IMG/VR virus record: IMGVR_UViG_3300031950_000010
Location: 1 to 28,633 of that record
Origin: a virus
DNA length: 28,633 bases
Strand: one strand, 5' to 3'
Both the position numbers and the translations under genes were made by a program. The notes beneath the pieces are model-generated. The model was given only the letters and a program-made list of their open reading frames with translations, searched no databases and had not been told where the DNA came from. Each line of letters begins with the position of its first letter. Position 1 is the stretch's first letter. Of the stretch, positions 4,082-28,633 are shown in pieces.

Positions 4082-5040
4082 TTCGGCTCCTTGAGAACGA
4101 ACCGGCGAGTGCCGGGTTGGGTGGTGGTGTGCCTCGCGATGAGCTCCGCGGGCACATTGGCCTCGCGGATCACCGCCTCGTAGTCGACGATTTTTCGTGC
4201 TGAGGTGGCGCGCCAAGTAGCAATGGGGCGGCCATGGAGCGTCAGCACACTGCGCTCACCGAGCGCGAGCTTGATGCGTTCAACGGCCGCCTCGTAATCT
4301 CGCTCGGCTTCCGCCATGCGGGTCCGCGCCTCGCGCGCGGCATTGTACGCTGCGATCAGTTCCTCGTCCGCCTCTAGCGACTCTCCGTTGTCGCTGGGCC
4401 ATCCGTGGTCTGCCTCGCGGGCGGTGGATGGAGGGGGAGGGACCCGCGCCAGAACATGATCGCGCCAGAATGTTTCGGCGCGGGCGAACATGGCGGCGAT
4501 GGTCTCATTGTCGCGCTCGATACGCCGCACAACGAGGCGCTGGCCACCGATCAAAGCGGCTACGTCGCACCACGGCAAGCCCGTGATGCCGAGGTACCAC
4601 ATGCACTGCGCTGCGCAGTGCAGCGGAACCGCGTCCGGGTCGTCGCCGCGGCCCCATTCGTGAGCAGCGAATGCGTTGACGGCCTTGCACTCGAGAACGC
4701 CGTCAGCGCCGCGCAGCTCACCGCCGCTCACTCGCGCACGACCGCGCGCCGGCAGCACCACGCGGTCGAGAGTAGCGATCGCCCACTCTCGACCACGCGC
4801 CCTGATCAGCGTGTTGACGCGCTGGATGCGCACACCAGCGCGGGCCGCGTACTCGCGCGCGATGAGGTCCTCGAGCAGCAGCCCCCAACGCATCGACTCT
4901 GTCTCCGGCTGCTCCGCCCCGTCCACCTTGTCGCGGTACACGTCGAGCGGCGTGCGCCACGGACTAAGACCGAGGATGGCGGCGATGTCAGAGCCGCCGA
5001 TGCCGGTGCGGCGGGCCGAGAGCCACTCGTCGCGGTTCAC
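4078..5040 (-). CDS. YqaJ/lambda-exonuclease-type recombination nuclease
   Basis: This 320-aa protein begins with RRTGIGGSDIAAILGLSPWRTP, the signature opening of YqaJ-type viral recombinases. It has the PD-(D/E)XK core: E57 in GLLLEDLIA, then D112 and the E-C-K of GVLECKAVN (about 112-118). The C-terminal 110 residues form a coiled coil plus a small beta domain, an extension often seen in phage homologues. It digests one strand of double-stranded DNA ends 5' to 3' and hands the 3' strand to RecT, encoded immediately downstream with a 4-nt overlap. The start is GTG at 5040 with GGAG 8 nt upstream, overlapping the end of the HTH gene region. Confidence 0.93.
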   Translation of the reverse strand: MNRDEWLSARRTGIGGSDIAAILGLSPWRTPLDVYRDKVDGAEQPETESMRWGLLLEDLIAREYAARAGVRIQRVNTLIRARGREWAIATLDRVVLPARGRARVSGGELRGADGVLECKAVNAFAAHEWGRGDDPDAVPLHCAAQCMWYLGITGLPWCDVAALIGGQRLVVRRIERDNETIAAMFARAETFWRDHVLARVPPPPSTAREADHGWPSDNGESLEADEELIAAYNAAREARTRMAEAERDYEAAVERIKLALGERSVLTLHGRPIATWRATSARKIVDYEAVIREANVPAELIARHTTTQPGTRRFVLKEPK

Positions 5041-5041
5041 G

Positions 5042-5248
5042 CTACTGCTCCTGCCGGATCGCTCCGAACTGGAGTTCTGCGGCGCGAGCCGCGGCTGCCT
5101 CCAGGATCCGCTTGGAGACCGCGCGGCCCTTGAGAACTTGGCTGACGGTGGTGGGCGTTACGCCGAGTTGCCTGGCGAGGCGGCCGATCTCGCCGCGATT
5201 GCGAAGGAGAACGCGCCTTATTTTCGTTAGGCTTATCTCTTGGCTCAT
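5042..5248 (-). CDS. Small HTH (Cro/LacI-like) DNA-binding regulator
   Basis: This 68-aa protein has a clear helix-turn-helix at about residues 15-40 (GEIGRLARQLGVTPTTVSQVLKG), followed by a helical dimerisation segment rich in Ala and Glu. It lacks the extra domain of full CI-type repressors. It is the first gene of the leftward operon and faces the divergent anti-CRISPR operon, so it probably sets the balance between the two programs by binding the TCTCTT sites of the intergenic region. The ATG at 5248 is chosen because it begins the folded domain and lies directly at the predicted transcription start; the longer frame to 5464 runs through the promoter and into the opposing gene. Confidence 0.85.
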   Translation of the reverse strand: MSQEISLTKIRRVLLRNRGEIGRLARQLGVTPTTVSQVLKGRAVSKRILEAAAARAAELQFGAIRQEQ

Positions 5249-5255
5249 CGCCTCT

Positions 5256-5284
5256 CTTATAAATCGTCTCCGCGAGGCCGTCAA
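5256..5284 (-). promoter_or_regulatory. Leftward early promoter (leaderless)
   Basis: On the minus strand, TTGACG (5284-5279) is followed after 17 nt by TATAAG (5261-5256), a near-consensus sigma-70-type promoter. The expected transcription start is about 5249, directly at the ATG of the HTH gene (5248), so the first mRNA would have essentially no leader. It should drive the whole leftward early operon, including recT and the Cas12-like gene. Confidence 0.7.
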
Positions 5285-5350
5285 GCCCCCCCCACGGAAG
5301 GAATTCACTAAGTGGTTGAAAACAAAAGAAAAAAAGTTGCAAGATTTCTC

Positions 5351-5379
5351 TTGACAAAAACCGCTAGTTGTTTTAAGAG
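5351..5379 (+). promoter_or_regulatory. Rightward promoter of the AcrIII-1 operon
   Basis: A perfect TTGACA (5351-5356) is separated by 17 nt from TAAGAG (5374-5379). The predicted transcript starts near 5386, followed by the strong ribosome binding site GGAGG (5391-5395) and the ATG at 5400. The promoter sits inside an imperfect palindrome (5347-5380), consistent with repression by the divergent HTH protein. Confidence 0.65.
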
Positions 5380-5399
5380 AGAAAGTGAAAGGAGGAAAT

Positions 5400-5783
5400 A
5401 TGATCATCGCGAACGCAGTTTCTCTAAACATGATCCCGCCGGATGTGACGTCCGGCGGGATCATCTTCAGGCGGATCAGCCTGACCGAGGCTCAGCGCCT
5501 CGTCCGCGAAGCAAACGAGATCGTGTCCGCGATTGGGCACGCGGACACGGCCCGTCTGGTTGGCCGGCAGCTCGGCGTCGAGCTCCAGGCCGACCGCCGT
5601 ACCGTCTTCCTGGGTGACGAGCTCACGCTCGTCGCCCAGTATGTGGGTCCCCGCCTCCCTGAGGGAACGACCGAGCTCCCTCGGGGGGCGCGGATCGAGT
5701 GGTTCTTGGTTCGCCTCGCGACCGGCGAGGAGCTCGCCGGTCGGGGCGACATGGTTTTCTATCCACAGGGGGCTGGGAGCTAA
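5400..5783 (+). CDS. acrIII-1: AcrIII-1 (DUF1874) viral ring nuclease, anti-CRISPR
   Basis: This 127-aa protein belongs to the DUF1874 family (SIRV1 gp29, STIV B116), which degrades the cyclic tetra-adenylate second messenger and so switches off the ancillary nucleases of type III CRISPR systems. Diagnostic segments are NAVSLNM near the N-terminus, SAIGHADTARLVGRQLG with His47, the basic ADRRTVFL strand, GDELTLVAQ, and GPRLPEGTTEL with Arg85 and Glu88. His47 and Glu88 fall at the same numbers as the residues reported as catalytic in SIRV1 gp29. The protein is slightly longer at its C-terminus. It heads the rightward operon behind a strong promoter and ribosome site, as expected for a protein needed at once on infection. 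Its first codons contain a 14-bp perfect inverted repeat. Confidence 0.93.
   Translation: MIIANAVSLNMIPPDVTSGGIIFRRISLTEAQRLVREANEIVSAIGHADTARLVGRQLGVELQADRRTVFLGDELTLVAQYVGPRLPEGTTELPRGARIEWFLVRLATGEELAGRGDMVFYPQGAGS
5430..5464 (+). repeat. 14-bp perfect hairpin within the AcrIII-1 gene
   Basis: ATGATCCCGCCGGA (5430-5443) and its exact complement (5451-5464) flank a 7-nt loop. It lies 30 nt after the start codon and encodes residues 11-22. In RNA it would be very stable and could slow or gate early elongation; in DNA it could extrude as a cruciform or act as a protein site. It is the strongest of many inverted repeats in this operon. Confidence 0.9.
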
Positions 5784-5796
5784 TCCCAACCCTTTT
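5769..5796 (+). terminator. Terminator-like hairpin across the AcrIII-1 stop codon
   Basis: A run of GGG(G), C and TGGGA (5769-5778) pairs with TCCCA, A and CCC (5784-5792) with one mismatch, and TTTT follows (5793-5796). The TAA stop (5781-5783) lies in the loop. It could attenuate transcription after the anti-CRISPR gene, so that AcrIII-1 is made in excess over the distal genes. The short U-run makes read-through likely. Confidence 0.45.
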
Positions 5797-5812
5797 CGTT
5801 TATGGAGGAGCA

Positions 5813-6175
5813 ATGGACAAGATCGGAAAGGAGCGCCACGTCGCTGACCGGTTGCGCGCCGGCCAGCGAATGACAATCGAGGAACTCGTAAGGGAAGCCG
5901 CCCGGCTCCCCGGCTGGTTCCTGACGGATCGCAACGCCATTCGGCGTCGCGACCCCAATGGGGCACTCCAGTGCCCCATCACCGCAGTGGCCTTCGTCTG
6001 GACCGGGAACTACTACCCGGTCCGTGACAGCATCCTGGTGGCAGCCCGTGCGATCGGGCTGCCGTACGGCCACGCTGTCGCGGTCGCCGAGGCCGCCGGG
6101 CCTTGGTGCACCGTGTTCGATTGCGAGTGGAGGTACCGCCTCGAGCGGGACCTCCTGGGCAAGAGGTACGTCTAA
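5813..6175 (+). CDS. 120-aa protein with CPI motif, second gene of the anti-CRISPR operon
   Basis: The start at ATG 5813 follows GGAGG by 4-5 nt. The N-terminus is charged and helical (residues 1-35). The centre contains the motif ALQCPITAVAFVW and a following helical segment with ARAIGLPYGHAVAVAEAAG. Small proteins with a C-P-I core and a downstream helix ending in an Ala-rich AAD/AEAAG motif occur as uncharacterised phage and plasmid proteins; I cannot name a family or function. Its neighbour upstream is AcrIII-1, so an anti-defence role is plausible by guilt of association only. The gene contains at least seven stems of 8 bp or more. Confidence 0.8.
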   Translation: MDKIGKERHVADRLRAGQRMTIEELVREAARLPGWFLTDRNAIRRRDPNGALQCPITAVAFVWTGNYYPVRDSILVAARAIGLPYGHAVAVAEAAGPWCTVFDCEWRYRLERDLLGKRYV

Positions 6176-6191
6176 ATGGTCGTACCTCTTG
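6160..6191 (+). promoter_or_regulatory. Hairpin hiding the ribosome site of the 264-aa gene
   Basis: CAAGAGGTACG (6160-6170) pairs perfectly with CGTACCTCTTG (6181-6191), leaving the loop TCTAAATGGT, which holds the upstream stop (TAA) and the ATG at 6176. The only Shine-Dalgarno-like sequence (AAGAGG) is inside the stem. Translation of the 264-aa protein should therefore depend on ribosomes finishing the 120-aa gene and opening the stem, a structural form of translational coupling. Confidence 0.6.
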
Positions 6192-6970
6192 AGTTCCAGC
6201 TCGGTCGCCGGGGCGACCTAGTCGCGGTCGCCCCAGATGGCCGGGTTGTTCTCGCCGCGCGCGGCGAGCGCGTAGAGGCGGACGTCCGCTTCTACGTCGC
6301 TCGCCGTCTCGTTTTGACGGCATCTGGCCGTGCGTACATCGCGCACGGCTTGGTGCCGGCTGCCAGCGTGCTAGAGTGCTGGCAGCTTTCCGCTCGTGGG
6401 GCGGAGCTGGCCGGCTACATCTACGATGACCCGGCCCGGCTCCCGACCCACACCCACCCAGCGGTGCGGGCGCACGTGGAGCGCCTGCATCGCGAATATA
6501 CCACCTGTCCGCGCTGCGGCGGCACCAAGGAATCCACTTGGCGGTACTGCCGCCGGTGCAGCGAGGAGCTGTTCCCGCGGGAGCCGCAGCCGGAGTTTGC
6601 GGCGTATCCGGTGGCGGTTCCCGATCCGCCCGATCATCGCTTCCCGTCCGAGCAGGACATCTTGAACGGTGCCCCCATGGTCTGCTCATGTGGGGCGAAA
6701 CTCGAGGTCATCGTGGGCGTCTGCGAGTCCCAGGACCGCGACGACGTTCACGTCGGCATCGCTAGGATCGAGTGCCCGCGCGAGCACGATGACTGGCGGG
6801 TGTGGGGCGAGTCCCTGCCTGCCGAGTGGCGGCGGGTGTGGGATTTGCTCGTGCGCGAGCACTTTTATGGCCCGATTCTCGCGGGCCAGATTATCAACAA
6901 GTACGCGCGGGCGGGAAAATCACCCGCGGAATGGGAGCAGATGTACTGGCTCCCGAGAATTACGGAATAG
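6176..6970 (+). CDS. 264-aa zinc-ribbon protein of the anti-CRISPR operon
   Basis: Residues 1-60 are beta-rich (VAVAPDGRVVLAARGERVEAD...), a possible small barrel. A zinc ribbon follows with CPRCGG at 111-116 and CRRC at 125-128. A second Cys-rich module has C170, C172, C183, C200 and H204, and the C-terminal 55 residues are helical. It is not recognised as a known family. The double metal-binding layout suggests a nucleic-acid or protein-binding role. The ATG at 6176 immediately follows the TAA of the previous gene, in the loop of a hairpin that masks the ribosome site. Its first 220 bases contain five stems of 8-12 bp. Confidence 0.8.
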   Translation: MVVPLEFQLGRRGDLVAVAPDGRVVLAARGERVEADVRFYVARRLVLTASGRAYIAHGLVPAASVLECWQLSARGAELAGYIYDDPARLPTHTHPAVRAHVERLHREYTTCPRCGGTKESTWRYCRRCSEELFPREPQPEFAAYPVAVPDPPDHRFPSEQDILNGAPMVCSCGAKLEVIVGVCESQDRDDVHVGIARIECPREHDDWRVWGESLPAEWRRVWDLLVREHFYGPILAGQIINKYARAGKSPAEWEQMYWLPRITE

Positions 6971-6979
6971 GAGGAGCTG

Positions 6980-7207
6980 ATGAGGCAGCAAGAAGTGCAG
7001 ATTGGCGGCAAATACTTTGCGAAAATCAGTGGCGACCTGTCGGTTGTGAGGATCACTGGCCGCACGCCTTACAGGCGTGGCCGCCTCGACGTGTTCGAGG
7101 CGGTTAACCTCAAGACGGGCCGCCGTGTTCACGTGACCGCCGCGCGGCTGCTGGCTCGCGTGACGGAGGAGGACCTGCGGGGATGGATGGAGAAGGAGGC
7201 CAAATGA
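6980..7207 (+). CDS. 75-aa small basic beta protein
   Basis: The layout is VQIGGKYFAKISGDLSVVRI...VFEAVNLKTGRRVHVTAARLLARV. The pattern Y-x-A-K-x-S-G...V-R-I...A-x-N-x-x-T-G-R-x-V...A-x-R-L-x is common in short phage and plasmid proteins and looks like a compact SH3- or KOW-like barrel, followed by a short helix. Function is unknown. The start ATG at 6980 follows GGAGG, and the stop overlaps the next start (ATGA). A 9-bp stem with 5-nt loop lies at 7081-7103. Confidence 0.75.
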   Translation: MRQQEVQIGGKYFAKISGDLSVVRITGRTPYRRGRLDVFEAVNLKTGRRVHVTAARLLARVTEEDLRGWMEKEAK

Positions 7208-7557
7208 AAATCGAAATTAGAAACAACGGTTGGATCAACGGTAAGGTGTTTTCCGCCCGGTGGCTCGAGATGGGACCGGACGCGGTTGCCATGGCAGCCG
7301 GTTCCATGGCTATTCAAATTCCGACGAGGATCACGGGCGGTGTCGAGGTTAGCGTCGATGCGCCCAGGGGCGTGATCTTGAGGGCGGATAACGTCGAGCT
7401 CAGAATCGAGGCGAACCTCACCCTCAAGATGGAACCCAGCGGGCGTATCACGGTGAGAGCCCCCGGGAAAGAACACACCTTCTCGATCACCACCTGGGAC
7501 ATCGAGGTCGAGGAGCCAGACGCCGAGCCGGAGGTGACGACATGTTCAAGGTCGTAA
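7204..7557 (+). CDS. 117-aa beta-rich hypothetical protein
   Basis: The start is ATG 7204, which has GGAGG 5 nt upstream and overlaps the previous stop (ATGA). The sequence alternates hydrophobic and polar residues throughout (ITGGVEVSVDAPRGVILRADNVELRIEANLTLKME), indicating repeated beta strands such as a small beta-helix or sandwich. The tail (about 100-117) is acidic and Pro-rich. It shows no Cys pairs or membrane segment, and no family is recognised. It overlaps the next gene by 16 nt. Confidence 0.7.
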   Translation: MKIEIRNNGWINGKVFSARWLEMGPDAVAMAAGSMAIQIPTRITGGVEVSVDAPRGVILRADNVELRIEANLTLKMEPSGRITVRAPGKEHTFSITTWDIEVEEPDAEPEVTTCSRS

Positions 7558-7943
7558 GACGAGACGCGCACGGCAGGCTCCTGTCGTGCGCGGTCGAACA
7601 TCCGGAGTTGGTGGTGGAGTACCGACCCGGTTTCTGGTCTGAGGCCCCGGTTGGCGGGCTGCTGGTATTTACGCAATACCAGCCCGCTGATCTCTTGGCT
7701 GTCGCGCTGTACGTCGCCTCGCTGGAGACGTTTGAGGTCTGGACGTGCGAGGTGTCCGAGCGCGTCCGGCTGCCGGAGTTCTCGTTGACCAGGACTGACT
7801 TCAGAGATTTGGTCGAGCTTCTCTGGGGCTCGGAGGACGTCCGAGCGATAAGGCACCAGCTCTGGCCGGCGAGGCTGGAATTCTGGCCTGAGGCAACTCA
7901 GGCTTATCGGAGGGTCAAGATCGTTGAAAGAGTGGGCACGTAA
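7542..7943 (+). CDS. 133-aa hypothetical protein of the anti-CRISPR operon
   Basis: The ATG at 7542 has GGAGG 8 nt upstream, within the previous gene. The protein has an alpha/beta look: a beta hairpin at the start (MFKVVRRDAHGRLLSCAVEH), a core LLVFTQYQPADLLAVALYVAS, then FEVWTCEVSERVRLP, and a helical C-terminus rich in Arg and Trp. Comparable short proteins with an E-V-W-x-C/A-E-V strand occur in phages without known function. The gene has a 13-bp stem at 7565-7592 and a bulged 13-bp stem at 7654-7687. Confidence 0.75.
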   Translation: MFKVVRRDAHGRLLSCAVEHPELVVEYRPGFWSEAPVGGLLVFTQYQPADLLAVALYVASLETFEVWTCEVSERVRLPEFSLTRTDFRDLVELLWGSEDVRAIRHQLWPARLEFWPEATQAYRRVKIVERVGT

Positions 7944-7954
7944 AGGAGGCTAAA

Positions 7955-8176
7955 ATGAAATACGTGAGATTCCAACGTAACGGCAGGCAATACGAATTTG
8001 CCTGCGATAGCTATGGGTACGGTTTGTTCTATCGAGATGAGCGCGACTGGGGATCGTACCATCAGTTTTTGGGGAGCTGCCAGACCCCAAAATTCGAGTC
8101 CCCCGAACAGTTCATCCGGTGGATCCGGCGACGGTACCACCGGCCCGGCAGGGTCGTTGAGGTTCGCTGGGCGTGA
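7955..8176 (+). CDS. 73-aa hypothetical protein
   Basis: The start ATG at 7955 follows AAAGGAGG by 5 nt, one of the best ribosome sites in the window. The protein is aromatic- and Arg-rich (GYGLFYRDERDWGSYHQFLG; FIRWIRRRYHRP). It is probably a small alpha/beta fold that may contact nucleic acid, although no motif proves this. Three stems lie in it: 7983-8005 (8 bp), 8067-8092 (8 bp, TTTTGGGG arm) and 8116-8143 (7 bp). Confidence 0.7.
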   Translation: MKYVRFQRNGRQYEFACDSYGYGLFYRDERDWGSYHQFLGSCQTPKFESPEQFIRWIRRRYHRPGRVVEVRWA

Positions 8177-8179
8177 GCG

Positions 8180-8392
8180 ATGAAAACGGCCAAACGCCGG
8201 TGCCCCAACTGCGGGGCGGAGCTTCCGCCCCGCACAATCATCTCGGCATTCCACTCTCTGGTGGCTTCCCGGCAGACTCCTCACGCCGGGCCCGGGAGGC
8301 CATCAAAGCCTACATCGTGCCCTAAATGCGGCGTGCTGCTGCCATCCGCTTCGGCGGCACGCGGACACTGCCGCAGCAAAAAACAATCTTAA
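8180..8392 (+). CDS. 70-aa zinc-ribbon protein, last gene of the operon
   Basis: The N-terminal CPNCG (residues 8-12) and the C-terminal CPKCG (47-51) with RGHC (61-64) form two probable zinc knuckles joined by a flexible Gly/Pro/Ser-rich linker. The start ATG at 8180 comes 3 nt after the previous stop. The ribosome site is weak, so translation is probably by re-initiation. The TAA overlaps the stop of the convergent holin gene. An 11-bp perfect stem with a 3-nt loop (8210-8234) encodes the first knuckle region. Function is unknown. Confidence 0.65.
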   Translation: MKTAKRRCPNCGAELPPRTIISAFHSLVASRQTPHAGPGRPSKPTSCPKCGVLLPSASAARGHCRSKKQS

Positions 8393-11540: not shown

Positions 11541-14315
11541 TTACTCCAGCACGTATCCGGCGGACTTCAGCGACCGCGCGATTGTAGTTGCGACATCATC
11601 TGCGATGGTGCGCGCATCTGCCCGAACGCTCACGTTCACGTTCACCGGCACAGTTGCTGGCGCGAGCGCTCGGCCGCCTGACGTCGGCGCGATCGAGCGC
11701 GCCGCGTTCGCCGCCGCGCCAGCGAGACCTTCCAGCATCTGCCGCAGCAGATCGTGAATGCCGGTCAGCAAATTCACGGCCTCCCACGCTGGATCAGCCA
11801 GATTGCGAAGCCACGGCCACCACTGATTCGCAGAATCCTGCAGCGCCTGGAGCTGGCTCAGAATGCCGCGCGTCGTGACCTCGATGCGCGCGACGTCCTG
11901 CTCGATGCGCCGCCCTTGGAAATAGCCGAGAATGCTTGAGATGAGATTCGTTGCGAAATCCAGCCAGCCGGCCAGACCGCCGCCAGCCACGGCTGGTGCG
12001 CCAGCGCCGCCTCCGCCTCCCGCCGCGCCTCCGGACGGCGTCTTCGCGGCAGCGCCGCCTCCGCCGAACACCCGCGCGATTGCGCGTCCGATGTCCTCGA
12101 TCTGTTTGAACAGGCCGCTGAACGCCTGGCCGAGACTCGCGACTTCGCCTTTGATGAGATTGGCGATCGCGCGCGCAATGCCACCGAGCGCCTCCTCGAT
12201 CACGTACCGCAGCGCCGCCCGTGCGATCTGCATGAACGTTTCCGTCATCACGTCGCCGAGCGACTTGCCCTTGAGTATCACGTCGGCAATGCCGCGCGAC
12301 ATGTCAGTAAGTACCGTAGATACTTGTTTGCCCGCCTTCGTCCACGCGTTTTCGTGTTTTTTCACTTCCTCTGTTACAACGCCGATCAGCTTTGGCGTGC
12401 GCCCCATCGCTGCTTCAAGAGTTTTCCAGTGGTCGCCGCTAGACGCCGCGAGCTTTTCCACCGCATCGGAGATCTCCCCTAACTCCGCATGAAGTTGAGC
12501 CCACCATTGCACGCTGCCCACGGCGGCTTGGCGCATCACCGCATCCAGATGCGAGAATAGCACGCCTTGCTCTTTGATCGTAGCGTTCAGCTTCGGCACT
12601 TCGTCCAGCATGAACGCGAGTGGGTCGCGCACGCGCTCCAAGGTTTTGATGTAGTTGTCCCAGGCGACGGAGAGTTCATACGCGGAGATTTTGCCCTGAG
12701 CGAATGCGAGGTGCAGTAAGTCAACCTGCTTTCGTAACTCTTCGAGCCGCACTTCCTCGCGCGTTCGCACGCCGAGCGCAACGAGAGCTTCCGTCAGTTC
12801 ACGCGCCTGGCGTTCCGCTTCGCGCTGCGCCTCAACGAGTCGCCGAGTCTCCTGTTGATCGTCTACCGTCGCCTGGATCTTGCGGCGCGTCGCCTGCTCG
12901 ACTTGTTGTTGTGCGCTCTTGAATAACCCTGCCTGCTCAGCTGCTCTCCGCAAAGCCGCCGCATATTGCTCCGTGGTCATGTTCCCGCGCTCGACCACGA
13001 TGCCGTGTGCGCGGAGCCGGTCCTCGAGCGCTTTCGTCGCGCTTTCGAGATCGCGCATCGCACGCGATGCGTCCCCCGAGACTCCAATGATTTTCTGGTA
13101 GACTGCCGCCGGGAACGCAGCCACGATCTCGATGAATTTGTTCAACGCACCGACTTTACTAACGATGTTCTCGTCAATCCAGCGCCCCAGTTGCCATCCA
13201 GTCCACGCCGCAGCAGTTAGAAGCACGGCCTCTTTGAGCGCGTACAACGCCGCTGTGAGGCCGGTCAAGCCAGCCGGACTAGTAGCCATCATGGCCGCCG
13301 AAGCAGCCGCCGCAAAGTTTCTGAATCCCAGTGAGACAAGATCAAGCAGGGGCGGTATCAGTACTTTGATTTTGTACAGAGCGCCGATCGCCTCAACTAA
13401 CTGACCTACCGCGAACAGTACTGGACCAATCGCCGCAGCCAGCGCCGCAAGTCTGATTGTCCATTCCTGTACTGGTTGAGGCAGCTTGAGAAACCACTCC
13501 ACCATTCCGCGCAACGCATCAATCGCGGTGGTGGCGACGTTCAGCAGTTTCTCGGTGAACGGCACGAGCGCATCGCCGGCCCGTGCGAGCGCGCGCTCGA
13601 TGGCGTCGCGCATGTTTTCCAATTCGTTCTTGATGCCGCTTGTAACTTTGGGCAGTTTCTCAAGCTCAGAAACTAATGTGTTGATGAATTCGCGCGAACG
13701 GATGCCCATTTTCTGGAGAACTTCAGTATCGATCGTCCCAAAGGCCTCCTTGATGATTCGCGCGGCTTGCGGCACGCGCTCCAAAATCGGCTTCAGGTTA
13801 TCCGCGGTGACTTTTCCGCGACTCTCCAGTTGCCCCAGCTGGCGGATGACTTCGTTCAGGTCTTCGCGCCCCCGCCCCACCGTCGCGAGCGCGTTGCCGA
13901 ATGCCTCGATGATTCGCACCGCGTCTTTGAACGCGAACCCGACGGCTTGTAGCTGAATGGCTGCCTGAACCGCTTCTTTGAGCCCAAGCCCGGGCAATTT
14001 CGCGGTCTCAACCAGACGCTTTAGCTGGCGATCGGCTTCCTCCGCGCTGCCGCCGACTGCGATAAGTCCGCGCCGCAGCGCATCCATGTCCGCCGCCGCT
14101 TTTACCGCGATCGTGCCGAACCCGACCAGTGGCGCAGTCAACGCCACGGTAAGCGTGCTACCGACGGACGCGATGTGCTCGCCCAATCGCCGGAAACCGG
14201 CTGCCATACGATCCGTGGTCGATTCGAGCCGGCTCAGCGTTCCCGAGACGCGGGCCATCTCGCGGTCGAATTCCGTGATATCTGCGCCAACTCGAACAAG
14301 CAGATTTTTCGCCAC
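11541..14315 (-). CDS. Tail tape measure protein
   Basis: This is the longest gene in the window: 924 aa from GTG 14315. The N-terminal part (LVRVGADITEFDREMARVSGTLSRLE...) and the following GFGTIAVKAAADMDALRRGL / GLGLKEAVQAAIQLQAVG blocks are those of tape measure core domains (TP901 type). Two hydrophobic zones (about 265-305 and 320-385) would insert in the host membrane. Long coiled coils follow at 400-560, then a Gly/Ala/Pro-rich spacer near 725-760. Its length sets tail length and it leaves the tube ahead of DNA at ejection. It follows the frameshifted chaperone pair, the usual order in siphophages. Confidence 0.95.
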   Translation of the reverse strand: MAKNLLVRVGADITEFDREMARVSGTLSRLESTTDRMAAGFRRLGEHIASVGSTLTVALTAPLVGFGTIAVKAAADMDALRRGLIAVGGSAEEADRQLKRLVETAKLPGLGLKEAVQAAIQLQAVGFAFKDAVRIIEAFGNALATVGRGREDLNEVIRQLGQLESRGKVTADNLKPILERVPQAARIIKEAFGTIDTEVLQKMGIRSREFINTLVSELEKLPKVTSGIKNELENMRDAIERALARAGDALVPFTEKLLNVATTAIDALRGMVEWFLKLPQPVQEWTIRLAALAAAIGPVLFAVGQLVEAIGALYKIKVLIPPLLDLVSLGFRNFAAAASAAMMATSPAGLTGLTAALYALKEAVLLTAAAWTGWQLGRWIDENIVSKVGALNKFIEIVAAFPAAVYQKIIGVSGDASRAMRDLESATKALEDRLRAHGIVVERGNMTTEQYAAALRRAAEQAGLFKSAQQQVEQATRRKIQATVDDQQETRRLVEAQREAERQARELTEALVALGVRTREEVRLEELRKQVDLLHLAFAQGKISAYELSVAWDNYIKTLERVRDPLAFMLDEVPKLNATIKEQGVLFSHLDAVMRQAAVGSVQWWAQLHAELGEISDAVEKLAASSGDHWKTLEAAMGRTPKLIGVVTEEVKKHENAWTKAGKQVSTVLTDMSRGIADVILKGKSLGDVMTETFMQIARAALRYVIEEALGGIARAIANLIKGEVASLGQAFSGLFKQIEDIGRAIARVFGGGGAAAKTPSGGAAGGGGGAGAPAVAGGGLAGWLDFATNLISSILGYFQGRRIEQDVARIEVTTRGILSQLQALQDSANQWWPWLRNLADPAWEAVNLLTGIHDLLRQMLEGLAGAAANAARSIAPTSGGRALAPATVPVNVNVSVRADARTIADDVATTIARSLKSAGYVLE

Positions 14316-16081: not shown

Positions 16082-16404
16082 CACTCCGCCTCGCGACAGT
16101 ACAAGTCCATCCATCCGCGCGCGTCTGGCTCGACACTCACGATGTCGAGCAGTCGTCCGCGCATCCGCACGCGCATTGCCGACGTCACGCCATCAATCGC
16201 TCGCGTCCGCAGCACAGTGCGCCGCTCCGCTGTTTCCTGGCCCGGTGCCTGGAACTCACGGCCGCGCGATGGCCCGAATGGCCCGATTCGCGCCCACGCG
16301 CGCGCGAATGTTTGCCACGTAGGCGTCGCCTCGCCCAGAGCGTCCGGCGCACTCGCGCCGCGCCGCTCGATCACGATCAACTCGCGCAGCTCGCCAGCAC
16401 GCAT
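16081..16404 (-). CDS. Head closure protein (SPP1 gp16 / HK97 gp7 type)
   Basis: This 107-aa beta-barrel protein begins MRAGELRELIVIERR, with the middle segment ATPTWQTFARAWARIGPFGPSRGREF and the end RMRGRLLDIVSVEPDARGWMDLYCREA, typical of the phage head-tail joining stopper family. It plugs the portal channel after packaging. It overlaps the end of the first glycosyltransferase gene by 28 nt. In most HK97-like phages it follows the gp6-like connector directly, but here a cassette separates them. Confidence 0.87.
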   Translation of the reverse strand: MRAGELRELIVIERRGASAPDALGEATPTWQTFARAWARIGPFGPSRGREFQAPGQETAERRTVLRTRAIDGVTSAMRVRMRGRLLDIVSVEPDARGWMDLYCREAE

Positions 16405-17114
16405 TCAAGCGGCCTCAGAGTCAGCGGCCCCGCCCATCGCGTGGTCATCGTCGCCGGATACTCGGGCAGGTCGCCGAGCACCATGTGGCGGTAGCCGTCC
16501 TCGACGCGATTGTTCGGATCAACGCGCCGGTACCAATGAAATTTCCTGATCCGGTCCTCGCGGTGGAGGTAGCCGTAGTGCAGCGTCGTCGCGCAAACCG
16601 GCGGTGCGCCGTTCACGCGCCGCGGAACGTTCCCGCAGTGCAGCCCGCCGACGCATGTACTCCTGAAGCGGTCGCTGGGATGATAGAGCCACAGCGAGGG
16701 CCGGAGAAAACGCCCGTAGATGCCATCGACGCGTACCTGATCCTCGCGGTCCCACACGTATAAAATCTTGACCGAGTACACCGACGACAATCGCCGCGCG
16801 ATCATCGCACGAATCGTCGAACGAGCATCGGGCACGAGCACCTCGTCGCCGTCCATCATGAGCAGCCACGTCTCGCCCTCAACGCGTTCGCCGGCGCGCG
16901 CGAGCAGATAGTTTTTGTCGCGCACTTCGTCGAGCCGATCCGGGAACGGCGACGGAATTACCATTGCCCCCGCCTCCGCCGCCAGTCGCGGCGTGTCGTC
17001 GCGCGAATGATCATCGAGGACCAGAACCTCATCGCAGACTGCGCGCATCGCCGCCACTGCGCGCTCAATCCAGCGCGCCTCGTCGCGCACGCGCATCAGT
17101 CCGATCAGCTTCAT
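16377..17114 (-). CDS. Family 2 glycosyltransferase (GT-A), first of three
   Basis: This 245-aa protein begins IGLMRVRDEARWIERAV, with the nucleotide-sugar binding motif VLVLDDHSRDDTP (33-42) and the metal-binding LLMMDGDEVL (85-93), both classic for GT2 enzymes such as those acting on lipopolysaccharide or peptide acceptors. It probably transfers a sugar to a virion protein, modified DNA base or cell surface; the acceptor cannot be read from sequence. It is part of a cassette inserted between the connector and closure genes. The start at 17114 overlaps the 65-aa gene (ATGA). Confidence 0.85.
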   Translation of the reverse strand: MKLIGLMRVRDEARWIERAVAAMRAVCDEVLVLDDHSRDDTPRLAAEAGAMVIPSPFPDRLDEVRDKNYLLARAGERVEGETWLLMMDGDEVLVPDARSTIRAMIARRLSSVYSVKILYVWDREDQVRVDGIYGRFLRPSLWLYHPSDRFRSTCVGGLHCGNVPRRVNGAPPVCATTLHYGYLHREDRIRKFHWYRRVDPNNRVEDGYRHMVLGDLPEYPATMTTRWAGPLTLRPLECVLASCAS

Positions 17115-17308
17115 CGGCGACCGAGTCCTCCGGGTCTCTGCGCCGTCCGTTTGGTCCGTTCACGTCCCCACTCGGCGAGGTATCGGAGCGCGTCGGCAGG
17201 CGCAATCTCGCCCGATTCGACGCGCCGGCGCAAGCGCGCCACCTTTCGCATCCAACAGGCGCGTTCCTGCGCGGCGGCTTTGTTCGCAGAGAGTCTCTTA
17301 GCCCGCAT
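17111..17308 (-). CDS. 65-aa basic protein within the glycosyltransferase cassette
   Basis: This short protein is very rich in Arg, Lys and Ala. A helix (RACWMRKVARLRRRVESGEIAPADALRYLAEWGRERTKR) covers most of its length, with no other motif. The ATG at 17308 has GAGGTG upstream, inside the end of the preceding gene, and the stop overlaps the next start (ATGA). It may be a small DNA- or glycan-associated adaptor. No family is recognised. Confidence 0.65.
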   Translation of the reverse strand: MRAKRLSANKAAAQERACWMRKVARLRRRVESGEIAPADALRYLAEWGRERTKRTAQRPGGLGRR

Positions 17309-17975
17309 TCATCACCTCGTGCAGCATCGCCCGGCCCCATTTGCGCTCGAATATCCGGGCGTGTATCTCCAGATCCTCGATGCGGCGCTCGTACGTCGCT
17401 CGGTTCGCTGCATGGCGGACGATCACTTCATACGTCACGCCGCATCGCATTCCTGCGCGCCCGATTCGCACGCAGTAATCCGTGTCGTCGAACCCGTAGC
17501 CACCCTCGAACTGCTCGTCGAGCAACCCCACGCGCGCGATCGTCCGCGCCGGCAGCGCGACGCAGATGAACGCCACGTCGCGCACTACTCTCCATCCACG
17601 CATCCCAGATCGCCAGCGTTGCGGTCCCCATTTGACCGGCCCGATCACCGCCGCCGCCAGCGCTCCCCAGTTGCCGGCGCACGCCAAACCGAGCAGTTTC
17701 TCCAGCCCGCCTCCCGTAACGACCTCGACGTCGTCGCCCATAATGATCACGTCGCGCCCAGCGGCATAACGCAACCCGATGTTCACGTTCCGCGCATAGC
17801 AGAACGGACGGACGCCGTCCAGCCATGTAACCGGCAAATCGCCGGCCCCATCGCGAGCGCCGTCATCCACGATCGCGATCTCGCCCTTCCATCCGCTCGC
17901 GCGGATGCTCGCGACACATGCGCGCGCGTTCTCAGGTTTCCGCGACGGGATTATGCAAATAGCTTCCGCGCCCAC
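17298..17975 (-). CDS. Family 2 glycosyltransferase, second of three
   Basis: The start is taken as GTG 17975, with GAGGTG upstream; the longer frame to 18344 runs inside the neighbouring transferase gene. The 225-aa product has ICIIPSRKPENARACVASIRASG, IAIVDDGARDGAG, ARNVNIGLRYAAGRDVIIMGDDVEVV (metal-binding D-D) and EGGYGFDDTDYCVRIGRAGMRCG, the expected GT2 order including the late acceptor/base motif. It overlaps the third transferase gene by 25 nt and belongs to the same cassette. Confidence 0.85.
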   Translation of the reverse strand: MGAEAICIIPSRKPENARACVASIRASGWKGEIAIVDDGARDGAGDLPVTWLDGVRPFCYARNVNIGLRYAAGRDVIIMGDDVEVVTGGGLEKLLGLACAGNWGALAAAVIGPVKWGPQRWRSGMRGWRVVRDVAFICVALPARTIARVGLLDEQFEGGYGFDDTDYCVRIGRAGMRCGVTYEVIVRHAANRATYERRIEDLEIHARIFERKWGRAMLHEVMNAG

Positions 17976-18598
17976 TTCGGCACCTCGCGAACGTCCAGCT
18001 TCGACCAGTTCGGCCCGCCTACCGCTCGCGGCGAGCTGTTGCTGTCGTGGATCGTCGCAATGAACGTCCAGGCCGCCTCCGCCGTGACCAGCACTCGTTC
18101 CGTCCATGCCAGCCAGCACAGGGCCGCATCCTCGCCCGTGTCCACGCGCGGAAACGGTCGCGCCATTGCCCATCGCCGCCGGTAGATGAGAGTCGCGCCG
18201 CAGGCGAACCACTCCGGCCCGCGGTAGAGATGCCACTCGCCAGTTCGCAGGTCTACGAACGGTACTACGCGCAGGCCGGCAATCATCGCGCGCCGCGATT
18301 CGATCAACTCGATCATGCGCGCGAGATATCCCGGCCCGTACCAATCGTCAGAGTCCCAGTGCGCGACCAAGTCGCCGCGCGCCCATCCCATCCCCACGTT
18401 CCGTCGCGCACCGAGCGACCCAGGCCATCGCCCGTATCGCTGACCGACTGGTTTGTCGAATGATGGGTTCTGCGGATCGTCGACAATGACTAACTCGCGC
18501 GTCGCGTAAGTCTGTCGCTCGAAGCACTCCAGCGCACGCGCGACCATGTCGCGTCGTCCCGACGTAACGAGGACCACAGACACCAGCGGTTCACTCAT
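17951..18598 (-). CDS. Family 2 glycosyltransferase, third of three
   Basis: This is a 215-aa protein from ATG 18598 (MSEPLVSVVLVTSGRRDMVARALECFERQTYATRELVIVDDP). The DxD-like motif is HWDSDDWYGPGYL, and GEDAALCWLA gives a late acidic motif. These are hallmarks of GT2 enzymes. The ATG overlaps the stop of the 113-aa gene (ATGA). With its two neighbours it forms a three-enzyme set that could build a short oligosaccharide. Confidence 0.85.
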   Translation of the reverse strand: MSEPLVSVVLVTSGRRDMVARALECFERQTYATRELVIVDDPQNPSFDKPVGQRYGRWPGSLGARRNVGMGWARGDLVAHWDSDDWYGPGYLARMIELIESRRAMIAGLRVVPFVDLRTGEWHLYRGPEWFACGATLIYRRRWAMARPFPRVDTGEDAALCWLAWTERVLVTAEAAWTFIATIHDSNSSPRAVGGPNWSKLDVREVPKWARKLFA

Positions 18599-18936
18599 GG
18601 CCGGATTGCTCCGTACGCTATCTCGATGGCGCGACGCAGCGATCGCTCGGTCGCATCCGGGTACCGCTCGCGTAACGCCAGATAGACGATTCGCGCGATC
18701 ACCTCGCCTTTCGAGATCTCGCTGCGCCACAAATTCGGCACGCCTAATTTCTCGGCGAGCGCCAGCAGCTCGTCGTCCGCGCGCGTCGGAGTCATTGCCG
18801 CGGCAATTGTCGCAAGCTCGTACGCCGTACGGAGGTACGGCGAGGCTGCCTCGACGCCGGCCACGAACCGCTCTGCCCATCCCGGCGCGAACAACCGCCG
18901 GAAAAAGTTTGCGATCGCTTCGATCACTTTCTTCAT
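18595..18936 (-). CDS. 113-aa amphipathic helical protein
   Basis: The ATG at 18936 has GGGGAG upstream. The N-terminus KKVIEAIANFFRRLFAPGWAERF is a strongly amphipathic, membrane-surface type helix. The rest is helical, including ISKGEVIARIVYLALRERYPDATERSLRRAIEIAYGAI. It lies between the small membrane protein and the glycosyltransferases and is coupled to both by short overlaps. It may be a virion or membrane-associated protein; no family is recognised. Confidence 0.65.
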   Translation of the reverse strand: MKKVIEAIANFFRRLFAPGWAERFVAGVEAASPYLRTAYELATIAAAMTPTRADDELLALAEKLGVPNLWRSEISKGEVIARIVYLALRERYPDATERSLRRAIEIAYGAIRP

Positions 18937-26381: not shown

Positions 26382-26879
26382 TCAGCCGCGGAGGCCTGCC
26401 AGCGGCACCTTCAGCGATCCAACGATGGTCCTCTCTCCAGACGAGACGCGCTCCCGCAGCTCGAACTTCTGGGGGGCGTACCGCATCTGCCAGTGCCGGC
26501 GGCAGCAGCCTTCCATGACAGCCGGCATCGGGCACCCGCGCTCGGCGCACCGTGTCGCCGGAGTCTCGGTCGGCGTCGGATGGCAAGCCCGCTGCAGTGA
26601 TGTCATGAAATCGAGCGCGCGCTTGATGATCGGCGCGACCATCTGTGGTGTCTCTCTCGCGATGGCCAGGTAGTACATCACGGACGTGTGATGCCGAAAG
26701 CCAAGCCGACGGCCTATCTGCTTCAGGCTCATGCCGCGCTCGCGGAGTAGCGCGGCAGCCGCGATGCGAGCGATGACGGCACTCCGCTGGCGGCTTTGCG
26801 ACAGCACCACGTCGATGCCAACCTCAGCAGCGAAAGCGCAAGCGAGCACGCAGAGCTTGGATTCGAGCTCGCTTCTCAT
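26382..26879 (-). CDS. DnaA domain IV-like DNA-binding protein
   Basis: This is a 165-aa protein. Residues 27-75 read SQSRQRSAVIARIAAAALLRERGMSLKQIGRRLGFRHHTSVMYYLAIARE, which has the layout of the DnaA C-terminal domain: the helix before, IG-x-x-x-G at the turn, and the R-x-H-T-(S/T)-V signature that contacts DnaA boxes. A Cys/His knuckle (C111, C116, C125/C126, H129) follows near the C-terminus. It lacks the DnaA AAA+ part, so it probably competes with or recruits host DnaA, or binds the phage origin. It is coupled to the replication initiator gene (ATGA) immediately upstream. Confidence 0.8.
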   Translation of the reverse strand: MRSELESKLCVLACAFAAEVGIDVVLSQSRQRSAVIARIAAAALLRERGMSLKQIGRRLGFRHHTSVMYYLAIARETPQMVAPIIKRALDFMTSLQRACHPTPTETPATRCAERGCPMPAVMEGCCRRHWQMRYAPQKFELRERVSSGERTIVGSLKVPLAGLRG

Positions 26880-27889
26880 GTTGCGACGTCCTCACCGCGT
26901 TTTCGGCATGCGCACGGCACGATAGTATCACGGAACTCGTATACCGTCTCGCCGCATCGCGGACACGCGCCGGAGTCTCGCAAATCCCAGCGTGAGTCGT
27001 GAGCATGATTGCTGCGCACCCAATCGGGAAGATCGGTGATGGCCTTCAAGAACAGACCATCGCTCCGCGGTGGTGATGCTCTGGAGCGGTGCCGGATCCA
27101 GCCGAGCACGTACCGCGGATGGATGCCCATGCTGGCAGCCTGCCTGGCGAGCGCGAGCGCCGATCCTGCTCGCGGGGGACGACCAACAGCCGCTGAAATC
27201 TCCTGCTCAACAGCCAGGATCCAGTCCAGATGCCGGCCGATGCTCATGCCGTTGTTGCGATTGTCAACAAACAAAGCCGAGCCGGCAGTTTGCTGATCCG
27301 GATCCGGTGCGGTCGGTTCGGCTGGCTCCGGCTCTGGCTTTGGCTGTGGCTCGGCTACGGCTTGGCTATGGCTATGGCTACGGCTACGGCTACGGCTATG
27401 GCAGTGCGCACACTGTGCGCTCTCCGTGCGCTCGGCGTGCGCATGCTGTGCGCTCGGCGTGCGCTCGGCGTGCGCATGCCGTGTATCTTCCGTGCGCTCG
27501 GCATGCGCACGCCGGTCCGATTTTGCGAGTCTGGATGATCGAGGCGGCCGGCCGTCGGCAAACGACTGGCCCGCCCTGGCGAGCCTGGTGTGGACCGAAT
27601 CCTCGGCATGGTCTGCCCAATCGTGAACCACGAGCCGGTGCTCCTCGTGCGGGTCGAGCAGCCTACACTCGATCAGAGCCTCGATGAGCTCTCGTGACGG
27701 TCGGTCCTCTGGCCAGGCGCAGGCCTCCGCGATCTCGTCATCGGTATAGCGCCCGATGTCGCCGCGCGGGCAGTACTGCGCGGTGAAATGCCAGAGCATC
27801 TCCAGGATGCCCACGGCCCATGCCCGGTTGATCCGGAGCCTGCGCGCAAGCGCGCGAATTTTGGGGTGATCAGGGGTCCCTCGTTTCAC
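26876..27889 (-). CDS. Replication initiator (phage replisome organiser)
   Basis: This is a 337-aa protein. Residues 1-90 (HPKIRALARRLRINRAWAVGILEMLWHFTAQYCPRGDIGRYTDDEIAEACAWP...LIEALIECRLLD) form the winged-helix N-terminal domain of phage replisome organiser/O-like proteins. Residues 120-200 are a low-complexity linker with three 11-residue AHAERT repeats (128-160) and a Ser/Arg/His stretch. Residues 225-300 look like a helical helicase-loader interaction region, and a C-terminal CPRCG/CAC zinc ribbon follows (about 304-330). It starts at GTG 27889 with GAGGG upstream, just after the CRISPR-like array in the transcription direction. Confidence 0.82.
   Translation of the reverse strand: MKRGTPDHPKIRALARRLRINRAWAVGILEMLWHFTAQYCPRGDIGRYTDDEIAEACAWPEDRPSRELIEALIECRLLDPHEEHRLVVHDWADHAEDSVHTRLARAGQSFADGRPPRSSRLAKSDRRAHAERTEDTRHAHAERTPSAQHAHAERTESAQCAHCHSRSRSRSHSHSQAVAEPQPKPEPEPAEPTAPDPDQQTAGSALFVDNRNNGMSIGRHLDWILAVEQEISAAVGRPPRAGSALALARQAASMGIHPRYVLGWIRHRSRASPPRSDGLFLKAITDLPDWVRSNHAHDSRWDLRDSGACPRCGETVYEFRDTIVPCACRKRGEDVAT
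27322..27512. repeat. Iteron-like repeats inside the initiator gene, candidate origin
   Basis: A 21-nt unit beginning GTGCGCTCGGCGTGCGCAT occurs at 27426-27446 and 27459-27479 and, with two changes, at 27492-27512, exactly 33 nt apart. Next to it (about 27322-27402) lie many GGCTAC/GGCTAT-type hexamers. An AT-richer palindrome, TTGTTG...CAACAA, is at 27252-27270. In lambda the origin iterons lie in the linker-coding part of gene O; this layout is closely parallel. Confidence 0.6.
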
Positions 27890-27928: not shown

Positions 27929-28450
27929 CTCGCACTCCACGATGAATCCCGCATTCGATGCGAACCGGTCAAGGAGAGGGGCCGAGTGACCGGCTACCAC
28001 TCGCACTCCACGACAAATCCTTAGGTCGATGCGACGGCCTGACCAGTACAGATCGGGGTAGTAGAAGCCTCGCACTCCACGGCAAACTCCTCATTCGATG
28101 CGACCTGCGCACGGTGGGGCAAATCATCCTCGCACTCCACGATGAATCTTGCATTCGATGCGACGGCGACATTCTGGTTGGCCGGGTGGTTGCCTACCAT
28201 CTCGCACTCCACGATGAATCCCGAATTCGATGCGACGCTGAAACTGCGAACTGGAGGGAAGCAGGAATGATTCTCGCACTCCACGACGAATCCCCCGCTC
28301 GATGCGACGCGCCGTCCATCTCGGGGCAAAAGCGGCACTCGATCTCGCACTCCACGACAAGTTCCCCATTCGTTGCGACACGCGCCAACCACGCCGCACT
28401 TACCTGATCATAAGCTCGCACTCCACGACAAGTTCCCCATTCGTTGCGAC
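27929..28450 (-). CRISPR. Phage-borne CRISPR-like array, eight 36-nt repeats
   Basis: Repeats lie at 27929-27964, 28000-28035, 28069-28104, 28129-28164, 28201-28236, 28273-28308, 28344-28379 and 28415-28450. The seven spacers are 35, 33, 24, 36, 36, 35 and 35 nt and all differ. On the plus strand every repeat begins CTCGCACTCCACG and ends TGCGAC (TGCGAA in the first); the middle 17 positions vary. Read on the minus strand the repeats run GTCGCA...CGTGGAGTGCGAG, with complementary ends (TCGCA/TGCGA), reminiscent of type V-F repeats that begin GTTGCA and end TGCAAC. The last two copies are identical, and degeneracy grows toward 27929, so the leader end is probably at 28450 with minus-strand transcription, the same direction as the Cas12-like gene. 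No adaptation genes are present. This block is the only long stretch without a gene. Confidence 0.88.
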
Positions 28451-28507
28451 GGCCTCTCGGCAACTCATCGTCGCACAGCAGCTTGCGGACGAGAATGCGA
28501 GAGGCCG
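28450..28507 (-). ncRNA. Structured leader with possible anti-repeat (tracr-like) next to the array
   Basis: On the minus strand CGGCCTCTCG pairs perfectly with CGAGAGGCCG (10 bp). After a small internal loop, CTCGTC pairs with GATGAG (one GU), then CGCA with TGCG, closing an 8-nt loop. The segment ACGATGAGTT (plus-strand 28471-28462) can pair with the repeat segments AACTTGTCGT (repeats 7, 8), GATTCATCGT (1, 4, 5) and GATTCGTCGT (6) over 10 positions using 2-3 GU pairs, so pairing survives the repeat variation. It lies between the 110-aa gene and the first repeat. Confidence 0.5.
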
Positions 28508-28633
28508 CCGCATCATGGCTACTCAGTCGCCATCTTTCCCGCCGCCGCTCGCGCCGGCAGAGCTGATAGCCTTCTGTGCGCGCGTAGCGCCAGACAGTTG
28601 CCTCCACAACAGCACCATGTCCTGTTTCGGCAC
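28507..28633. repeat. Terminal overlap, right copy
   Basis: This segment is identical to bases 1-127. It contains the junction side of the leader region and a second copy of the 3' end of the 110-aa gene (28523-28633, minus strand, truncated by the window edge). On the circular genome, base 28506 is followed by base 1. Confidence 0.9.

Follow-up and report, generated by a model that had tools for sequence, protein, structure and literature searches.

Profile matches, predicted structure and active-site residues together place the protein that is encoded at positions 5400-5783 of the viral contig IMGVR_UViG_3300031950_000010 firmly in the AcrIII-1/Crn2 family. A known anti-CRISPR family thereby gains a new member, which is found in a new genomic combination. 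As judged from the sequence, the by far likeliest function of the gene product is that of an anti-CRISPR ring nuclease. By analogy to characterised relatives, this phage enzyme very probably cleaves the cA4 of a type III system of the host and thereby lets the phage survive, with its gene leading an operon in an exchangeable cassette that lies beside a separate CRISPR-like module. The window, i.e. the whole analysed stretch of 28,633 nt, is circular, as its bases 1-127 are the same as bases 28507-28633, and it corresponds to a complete-looking phage of 28.5 kb that encodes a terminase (TerL), a portal, an HK97-type capsid with protease, a lysis enzyme, RecT, and YqaJ.

The open reading frame starts with an ATG at 5400 and ends with a stop codon at 5781-5783. 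Its product is matched by PF08960 (STIV_B116-like) with an E-value of 5.8e-10 and 39.7 bits, the curated cut-off being 26, and by PHROG 5063 with an E-value of 8.6e-15. Also the sequences of four solved DUF1874 proteins match, among them SIRV1 gp29 (2x4i/6scf), AFV3-109, and STIV B116, and with a profile the best E-value against these three was 6.7e-16. A hidden Markov model that was built from distant relatives only, with the window and its two closest loci (L003 and L004) left out, gave 66.8 bits for the protein, as compared to 8.2 bits for the best of 1000 shuffled versions of it and at most 3.8 bits for all other open reading frames of the window. An assignment to Csx16 was considered and rejected, as the PADLOC match is weak (E 1.6e-5, residues 35-90) and the DUF1874 match, which also spans the N-terminal motif, is stronger; both families include cA4-degrading enzymes (PMC12409355), but Csx16 is a distinct and mostly cellular family.

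The AlphaFold model of the protein has a pLDDT of 84.8, and all of its confident fold matches in the PDB are DUF1874, AcrIII-1 or Csx1-Crn2 structures (Foldseek, VIA). The Z-scores are 12-13 against 6scf, 2j6b, 2j85, 2x4i, and 8y7g, with VIA values of 13.1 for 6scf (SIRV1 gp29 with bound cA4, over 104 residues) and 12.1 for the cA4 complex 8y7g, and the next, unrelated fold has a Z-score of 2.1. Like in SIRV1 gp29, the three residues H47, R85, and E88 are found at exactly these positions in the alignment, and the N-terminal N-A-x-S motif, which extends to N-A-x-S-x-N-M in both virus-encoded proteins, is kept. In 13 aligned proteins, N5, A6, S8, SAIGHADTA, R66, Q80, R85, and LPEG are invariant. 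Among 82 matches from 80 viral loci, the catalytic histidine is present in 80 and the arginine and the glutamate in 81 each, counts that are partly ascertained because the scan patterns included SAIGHADT and RLPEG. The original prediction of a protein that keeps H47, R85, and E88 of the viral ring nuclease family is thus borne out by the profile match above cut-off, by the DUF1874 fold, and by the presence of all three residues. The 66-kb record of locus L200 (G722), from the sample that also gave L003, has two distinct DUF1874 genes in one viral contig, both above the Pfam cut-off, and the catalytic histidine is absent from one of the two matched stretches.

The identity to characterised enzymes is only about 20-27%, and on this ground one could take the protein for a sponge that binds cyclic nucleotides, or for a ring nuclease of another substrate preference, directed against another cyclic-oligonucleotide defence. 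Other viral proteins are reported to be such sponges (PMC12043709), but the complete retention of the catalytic residues and of the N-A-x-S motif, together with the cleavage of cA4 by the tested family members (PMC7213978, PMC12409355, PMC7293037), makes this improbable for the window protein. In the case of an anti-CRISPR ring nuclease, which is the preferred reading and agrees with the location of the gene in a phage, a type III CRISPR complex of the host would detect phage RNA and make cA4, the AcrIII-1 dimer would bind the cA4 as in SIRV1 gp29 and Csx1-Crn2, and H47 would, with R85 and E88 and again by analogy, quickly cut it to linear A2>P/A2-P, so that the cA4-activated effectors or nucleases of the host would remain off and the phage would survive. 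The importance of the histidine is known from SIRV1 gp29, the H47A variant of which is inactive yet still binds cA4 (~25 nM; PMC7213978), and from Crn2, where H495A is inactive (PMC7293037).

The closest relatives of the gene are found in the IMG/VR loci L003 (83% identity at the protein level) and L004 (79%), with which it forms a fully supported clade inside the viral homologues. A C-terminal tail of about 20 residues (~109-127), which is modelled with low confidence, is specific to this clade in the alignment and is one of the differences to SIRV1 gp29; the two proteins are about 20% identical, and the latter belongs to an archaeal rod virus, whereas the window is a tailed phage of small size whose head genes are of the HK97 type. 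A phage-borne DUF1874 protein is known also from the Thermoanaerobacterium phage THSA-485A and is 40% identical. In a survey, AcrIII-1 was detected in 36 of 28,114 phage genomes, more often than any other ring nuclease of phages, but among prokaryotic genomes in just 7, and it is this difference in counts that in the view of the survey authors supports a viral counter-defence origin (PMC12409355).

DUF1874 proteins occur also as Crn2 in type III loci (PMC12409355), and as the window has a CRISPR-like array of its own, the protein might be a regulator of this type that serves a CRISPR system of the host or of the phage, for example by tuning cA4 for the host of a temperate phage. The Crn2 of Marinitoga (8y7f, 8y7g) shares the ring-nuclease domain and the catalytic histidine with the window protein (Z 12.1-12.2) but forms a fusion with an effector in a type III locus of the host, whereas the window protein stands alone in a phage. 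Since the HK97-type capsid, portal and terminase genes are present and the window open reading frames that were scanned showed neither Cas10 nor a further gene of type III systems, such a host-regulatory role is unlikely; moreover, the effector next to the array is type V-like and would not signal through cA4, and the nearest AcrIII-1 homologues are all in viral contigs, which leaves this explanation with a slim chance that is smaller than that of a sponge or of another substrate.

The dN/dS of the gene in comparison to L003 and L004 is 0.20-0.22, and therefore the gene is maintained by purifying selection. A near-perfect palindrome with 23-nt arms lies at the start of the open reading frame and forms a stem in RNA fold predictions. 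It is not conserved in L003 or L004, and it may possibly be an operator or a translational hairpin. A half-site that is related to this palindrome is found at 2494-2509, with 3 mismatches. That the gene is a non-functional or unexpressed relic, as one could suspect from the imperfect promoter match and from the strong hairpin within the initial 70 bases that could hamper translation, is very improbable and the least likely of all explanations, as the low dN/dS of about 0.2 goes along with an intact frame, a strong Shine-Dalgarno sequence, and a conserved active site.

The position of the gene is that of an operon leader, just as had been proposed: it is the first of eight genes on the plus strand (5400-8392) with gaps or overlaps of no more than about 30 bases, and most of the eight are preceded by a strong Shine-Dalgarno sequence. 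The features of this region and of the CRISPR-like module are compiled in Table 1. Upstream of the operon there is a TTGACA-17-TAAGAG element, which is suggestive of the operon promoter on reading the sequence but was not accepted by a consensus promoter scan. The divergently oriented HTH gene heads leftward genes for YqaJ and RecT, and the AcrIII-1 operon opposite of these HTH-led recombination genes has the appearance of an early control region that works in both directions; the AcrIII-1 operon would probably be expressed early. Operon genes 4-6 match no known family in Pfam, PADLOC, PHROGs, or NCBIfam. Because these genes are found beside AcrIII-1 also in L003 and L004, the AcrIII-1 cassette seems to travel as a unit, and by guilt by association the three genes (6980-7943) are candidates for new anti-defence proteins.

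Table 1. Positions of the AcrIII-1 operon, its flanking elements and the CRISPR-like module in the window
Feature	Position	Strand	Description or evidence
Distant TnpB/Cas12-like protein, 462 aa	330..1718	-	NCBIfam guided_TnpB E 3.6e-6; PADLOC Cas12f E 2e-4
Divergent small HTH (Cro/CI-like) gene, ~68 aa	5042..5248	-	PHROG repressor families E 3e-5; start codon and Shine-Dalgarno; 48% identical homologue in L016
Candidate promoter TTGACA-17-TAAGAG	5351..5379	+	Sequence reading; TTGACA at 5351-5356
Shine-Dalgarno AGGAGG (perfect) of the AcrIII-1 gene	5390..5395	+	Sequence
AcrIII-1 (DUF1874/STIV_B116) ring nuclease gene	5400..5783	+	127 aa; H47, R85, E88; profile, PDB sequence and fold matches
Palindrome/hairpin in the AcrIII-1 ORF start	5424..5470	+	Repeat search; stem in RNA fold prediction
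Operon gene 2, 120 aa	5813..6175	+	No match in Pfam, PADLOC, PHROGs, NCBIfam
Operon gene 3, 264 aa, zinc-ribbon-like segment	6176..6970	+	Weak sub-threshold Pfam matches
Operon gene 4, 75 aa	6980..7207	+	63-78% identical genes near AcrIII-1 in L003, L004
Operon gene 5, 117 aa	7204..7557	+	46% identical genes in L003, L004
Operon gene 6, 133 aa	7542..7943	+	43% identical genes in L003, L004
Operon gene 7, 73 aa	7955..8176	+	No family found
Operon gene 8, 70 aa, two CxxC zinc-ribbon-like motifs	8180..8392	+	Weak sub-threshold zinc-ribbon matches
CRISPR-like array, 8 repeats of ~36 nt, spacers mostly 33-36 nt (one 24)	27929..28450	-	Repeat search and repeat/spacer parse
Large leader hairpin before the first repeat	28445..28512	-	Inverted repeat; RNA fold

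It had also been predicted that the same genome combines the anti-CRISPR with a type V-like RNA-guided system of its own. The array part of this holds, as there are 8 repeats, mostly spaced by 69-72 nt, with distinct spacers, whereas the effector is only distantly related to TnpB and Cas12. No Cas12 or TnpB family model in NCBIfam or Pfam was reached above its curated cut-off: the guided_TnpB match has 26.5 bits at a cut-off of 100, and the Pfam Cas12f1-like_TNB match has 13.8 bits at a cut-off of 26.3. In one weak HMM alignment (E 0.17), the RuvC-II glutamate of Cas12f1 is aligned to Ala384, and neither a zinc ribbon nor a RuvC-III aspartate motif was seen at the C-terminus of three homologues. 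The AlphaFold model is poor (pLDDT 51). The Cas12-like protein is probably nuclease-inactive, and if it is functional, binding or silencing would be more likely than cutting; the RNA-guided system may possibly be a binding or silencing module at most. Inactive type V effectors of the binding type are known (PMC12669027; PMC11656645). The module resembles those of inactive type V effectors on phages or plasmids, such as Cas12m (V-M), in having a small Cas12-related protein with an apparently inactive RuvC beside an array, with no Cas1 or Cas2 seen, but there is no family-level match to Cas12m or to any named subtype, only to the general TnpB/Cas12f profile, and this below cut-off.

As the contig is circular, the array adjoins the Cas12-like open reading frame. 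Its repeats have conserved ends (GTCGCATCGA ... TCGTGGAGTGCGAG) and middles that vary within the one array. The exact repeat pattern occurs in only one other viral contig, the record of the sister phage L016, and both L016 and the second sister phage, L017, have arrays of their own with similar repeats and other spacers, none of which are in common. In 185 loci (2.2 Mb), the window spacers have no credible match other than in the array itself, and two spacer cores have no exact match in viral contigs. The leader hairpin folds at -42 to -53 kcal/mol in the window, in L016 (~11710-11780), and in L017 (~11590-11655), where the sequence has diverged and the fold is retained. The hairpins of the window and of L016 contain CTCGCA and TGCGAC, which are the reverse complements of the repeat ends, and on this basis the hairpin could be a tracr-like anti-repeat. 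The effectors of the two sister phages are 86-88% identical to the window protein, and these were the only two other contigs with this family in two scans of 2.9 million viral contigs; like the AcrIII-1 scan, they used short peptide patterns, and contigs may be fragments. Neither the phage collection nor the plasmid collection nor six bacterial genomes gave a match to the Cas12-like protein. In all three phages, the Cas12-like gene is followed by the same gene for a protein of 110 aa (17-349 in the window).

One circular genome of 28.5 kb thus carries AcrIII-1, an array of 8 repeats, and a TnpB/Cas12-related gene. This pairing is real, and it looks rare within the contigs and patterns that could be tested. 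That it is unusual, as originally suggested, agrees with the finding that no more than two further viral contigs have the Cas12-like family and that both of these lack AcrIII-1: PF08960 is absent from the whole contigs of L016 and L017, each with Cas12-like gene and array. In turn, no match to the Cas12-like protein was found in L003 and L004, which have the closest AcrIII-1 proteins, or in THSA-485A, and an exact-repeat scan, which is insensitive to degenerate repeats, gave no array in the fetched flanks of L003 and L004. As L016 and L017 lack AcrIII-1 and L003 and L004 lack the Cas12-like gene, the two modules appear to be exchanged separately, and the sequences indicate that they have been gained and lost independently of each other. 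In L016, the slot of the AcrIII-1 operon between the lysis genes and the HTH gene is covered (4985-5895) and holds two unrelated genes for proteins of 203 aa and 100 aa; this site appears to take up varying accessory genes.

AcrIII-1 itself is common in viral contigs, with 122 relatives from one scan. In 63 AcrIII-1-bearing records, PF07282 gave 5 matches above cut-off and one weak fragment, all of which are TnpB-type proteins or fragments, and as this profile would miss the divergent effector of the window itself, the survey is an imprecise gauge of how rare the pairing is. The array scan of the AcrIII-1-bearing loci covered the fetched flanks and exact repeats, with the same insensitivity to degenerate repeats. 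A repeat cluster in L223 was rejected as an array, as it consists of short palindromes with irregular spacing and is not CRISPR. In the 353-kb phage L013, AcrIII-1 occurs together with an ordinary-looking, intact TnpB-type protein, with no array nearby, and the very large phage of record L227 (G745, 459 kb) has AcrIII-1 and five TnpB/Cas12f-like matches. In the open-access literature, no report was found in which AcrIII-1 is combined with an array on a phage, and according to a review CRISPR systems are rare in phages below 200 kb (PMC11656645).

AcrIII-1 would lie in an exchangeable anti-defence cassette, and the array with the Cas12-like gene would be a separate module that happens to share the genome and works without cA4. 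It is established that type V-like effectors do not use cA4. As no cA4 is made by an effector of this type, the two parts do not contradict each other in function, and AcrIII-1 would spare the phage's own module. One may go further and see in the 28.5-kb phage two complementary layers of conflict, in which the AcrIII-1-led operon of co-travelling, so far undescribed anti-defence genes (75, 117, and 133 aa) blocks type III signalling, while a Cas12-like effector of a new, nuclease-inactive family, with array and tracr-like leader, uses RNA-guided binding to silence rival phages or defence genes of the host and is immune to the phage's own anti-CRISPR, as it does not use cA4; this full picture is speculative and, taken as a whole, rather unlikely. 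In any case, the phage is a concrete example of an anti-CRISPR and a CRISPR-like module in one very small genome.

The genome has a GC content of 64%, and the IVYWREL fraction of its proteome is high (0.44), a value that fits a thermophile and that is influenced also by the GC content. The sister phage L017 comes from cores of the Chocolate Pots hot spring with about 38-51 C (PMC6137239). The phage is probably a virus of a hot-spring bacterium, and AcrIII-1 is thereby extended to a phage lineage that is linked with hot springs. In a search of genome contigs, the bacterial terminases nearest to that of the phage showed no more than about 42% identity and stemmed from a wide range of Bacillota and other taxa, and thus they pointed to no host. 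Also AcrIII-1 is not informative as a host clue, with one distant match in 400 genomes of one phylum and two in 299 genomes of another (36-40% identity).

Two further observations concern other parts of the genome. Between the head and tail modules there are three genes of family-2 glycosyltransferases on the minus strand (16377-18880), two of which overlap, and these may possibly serve surface or DNA modification. Short tandem-like repeats at 27355-27609 lie within the coding sequence of a gene for a protein of 337 aa (26876-27889) and are possibly replication iterons.
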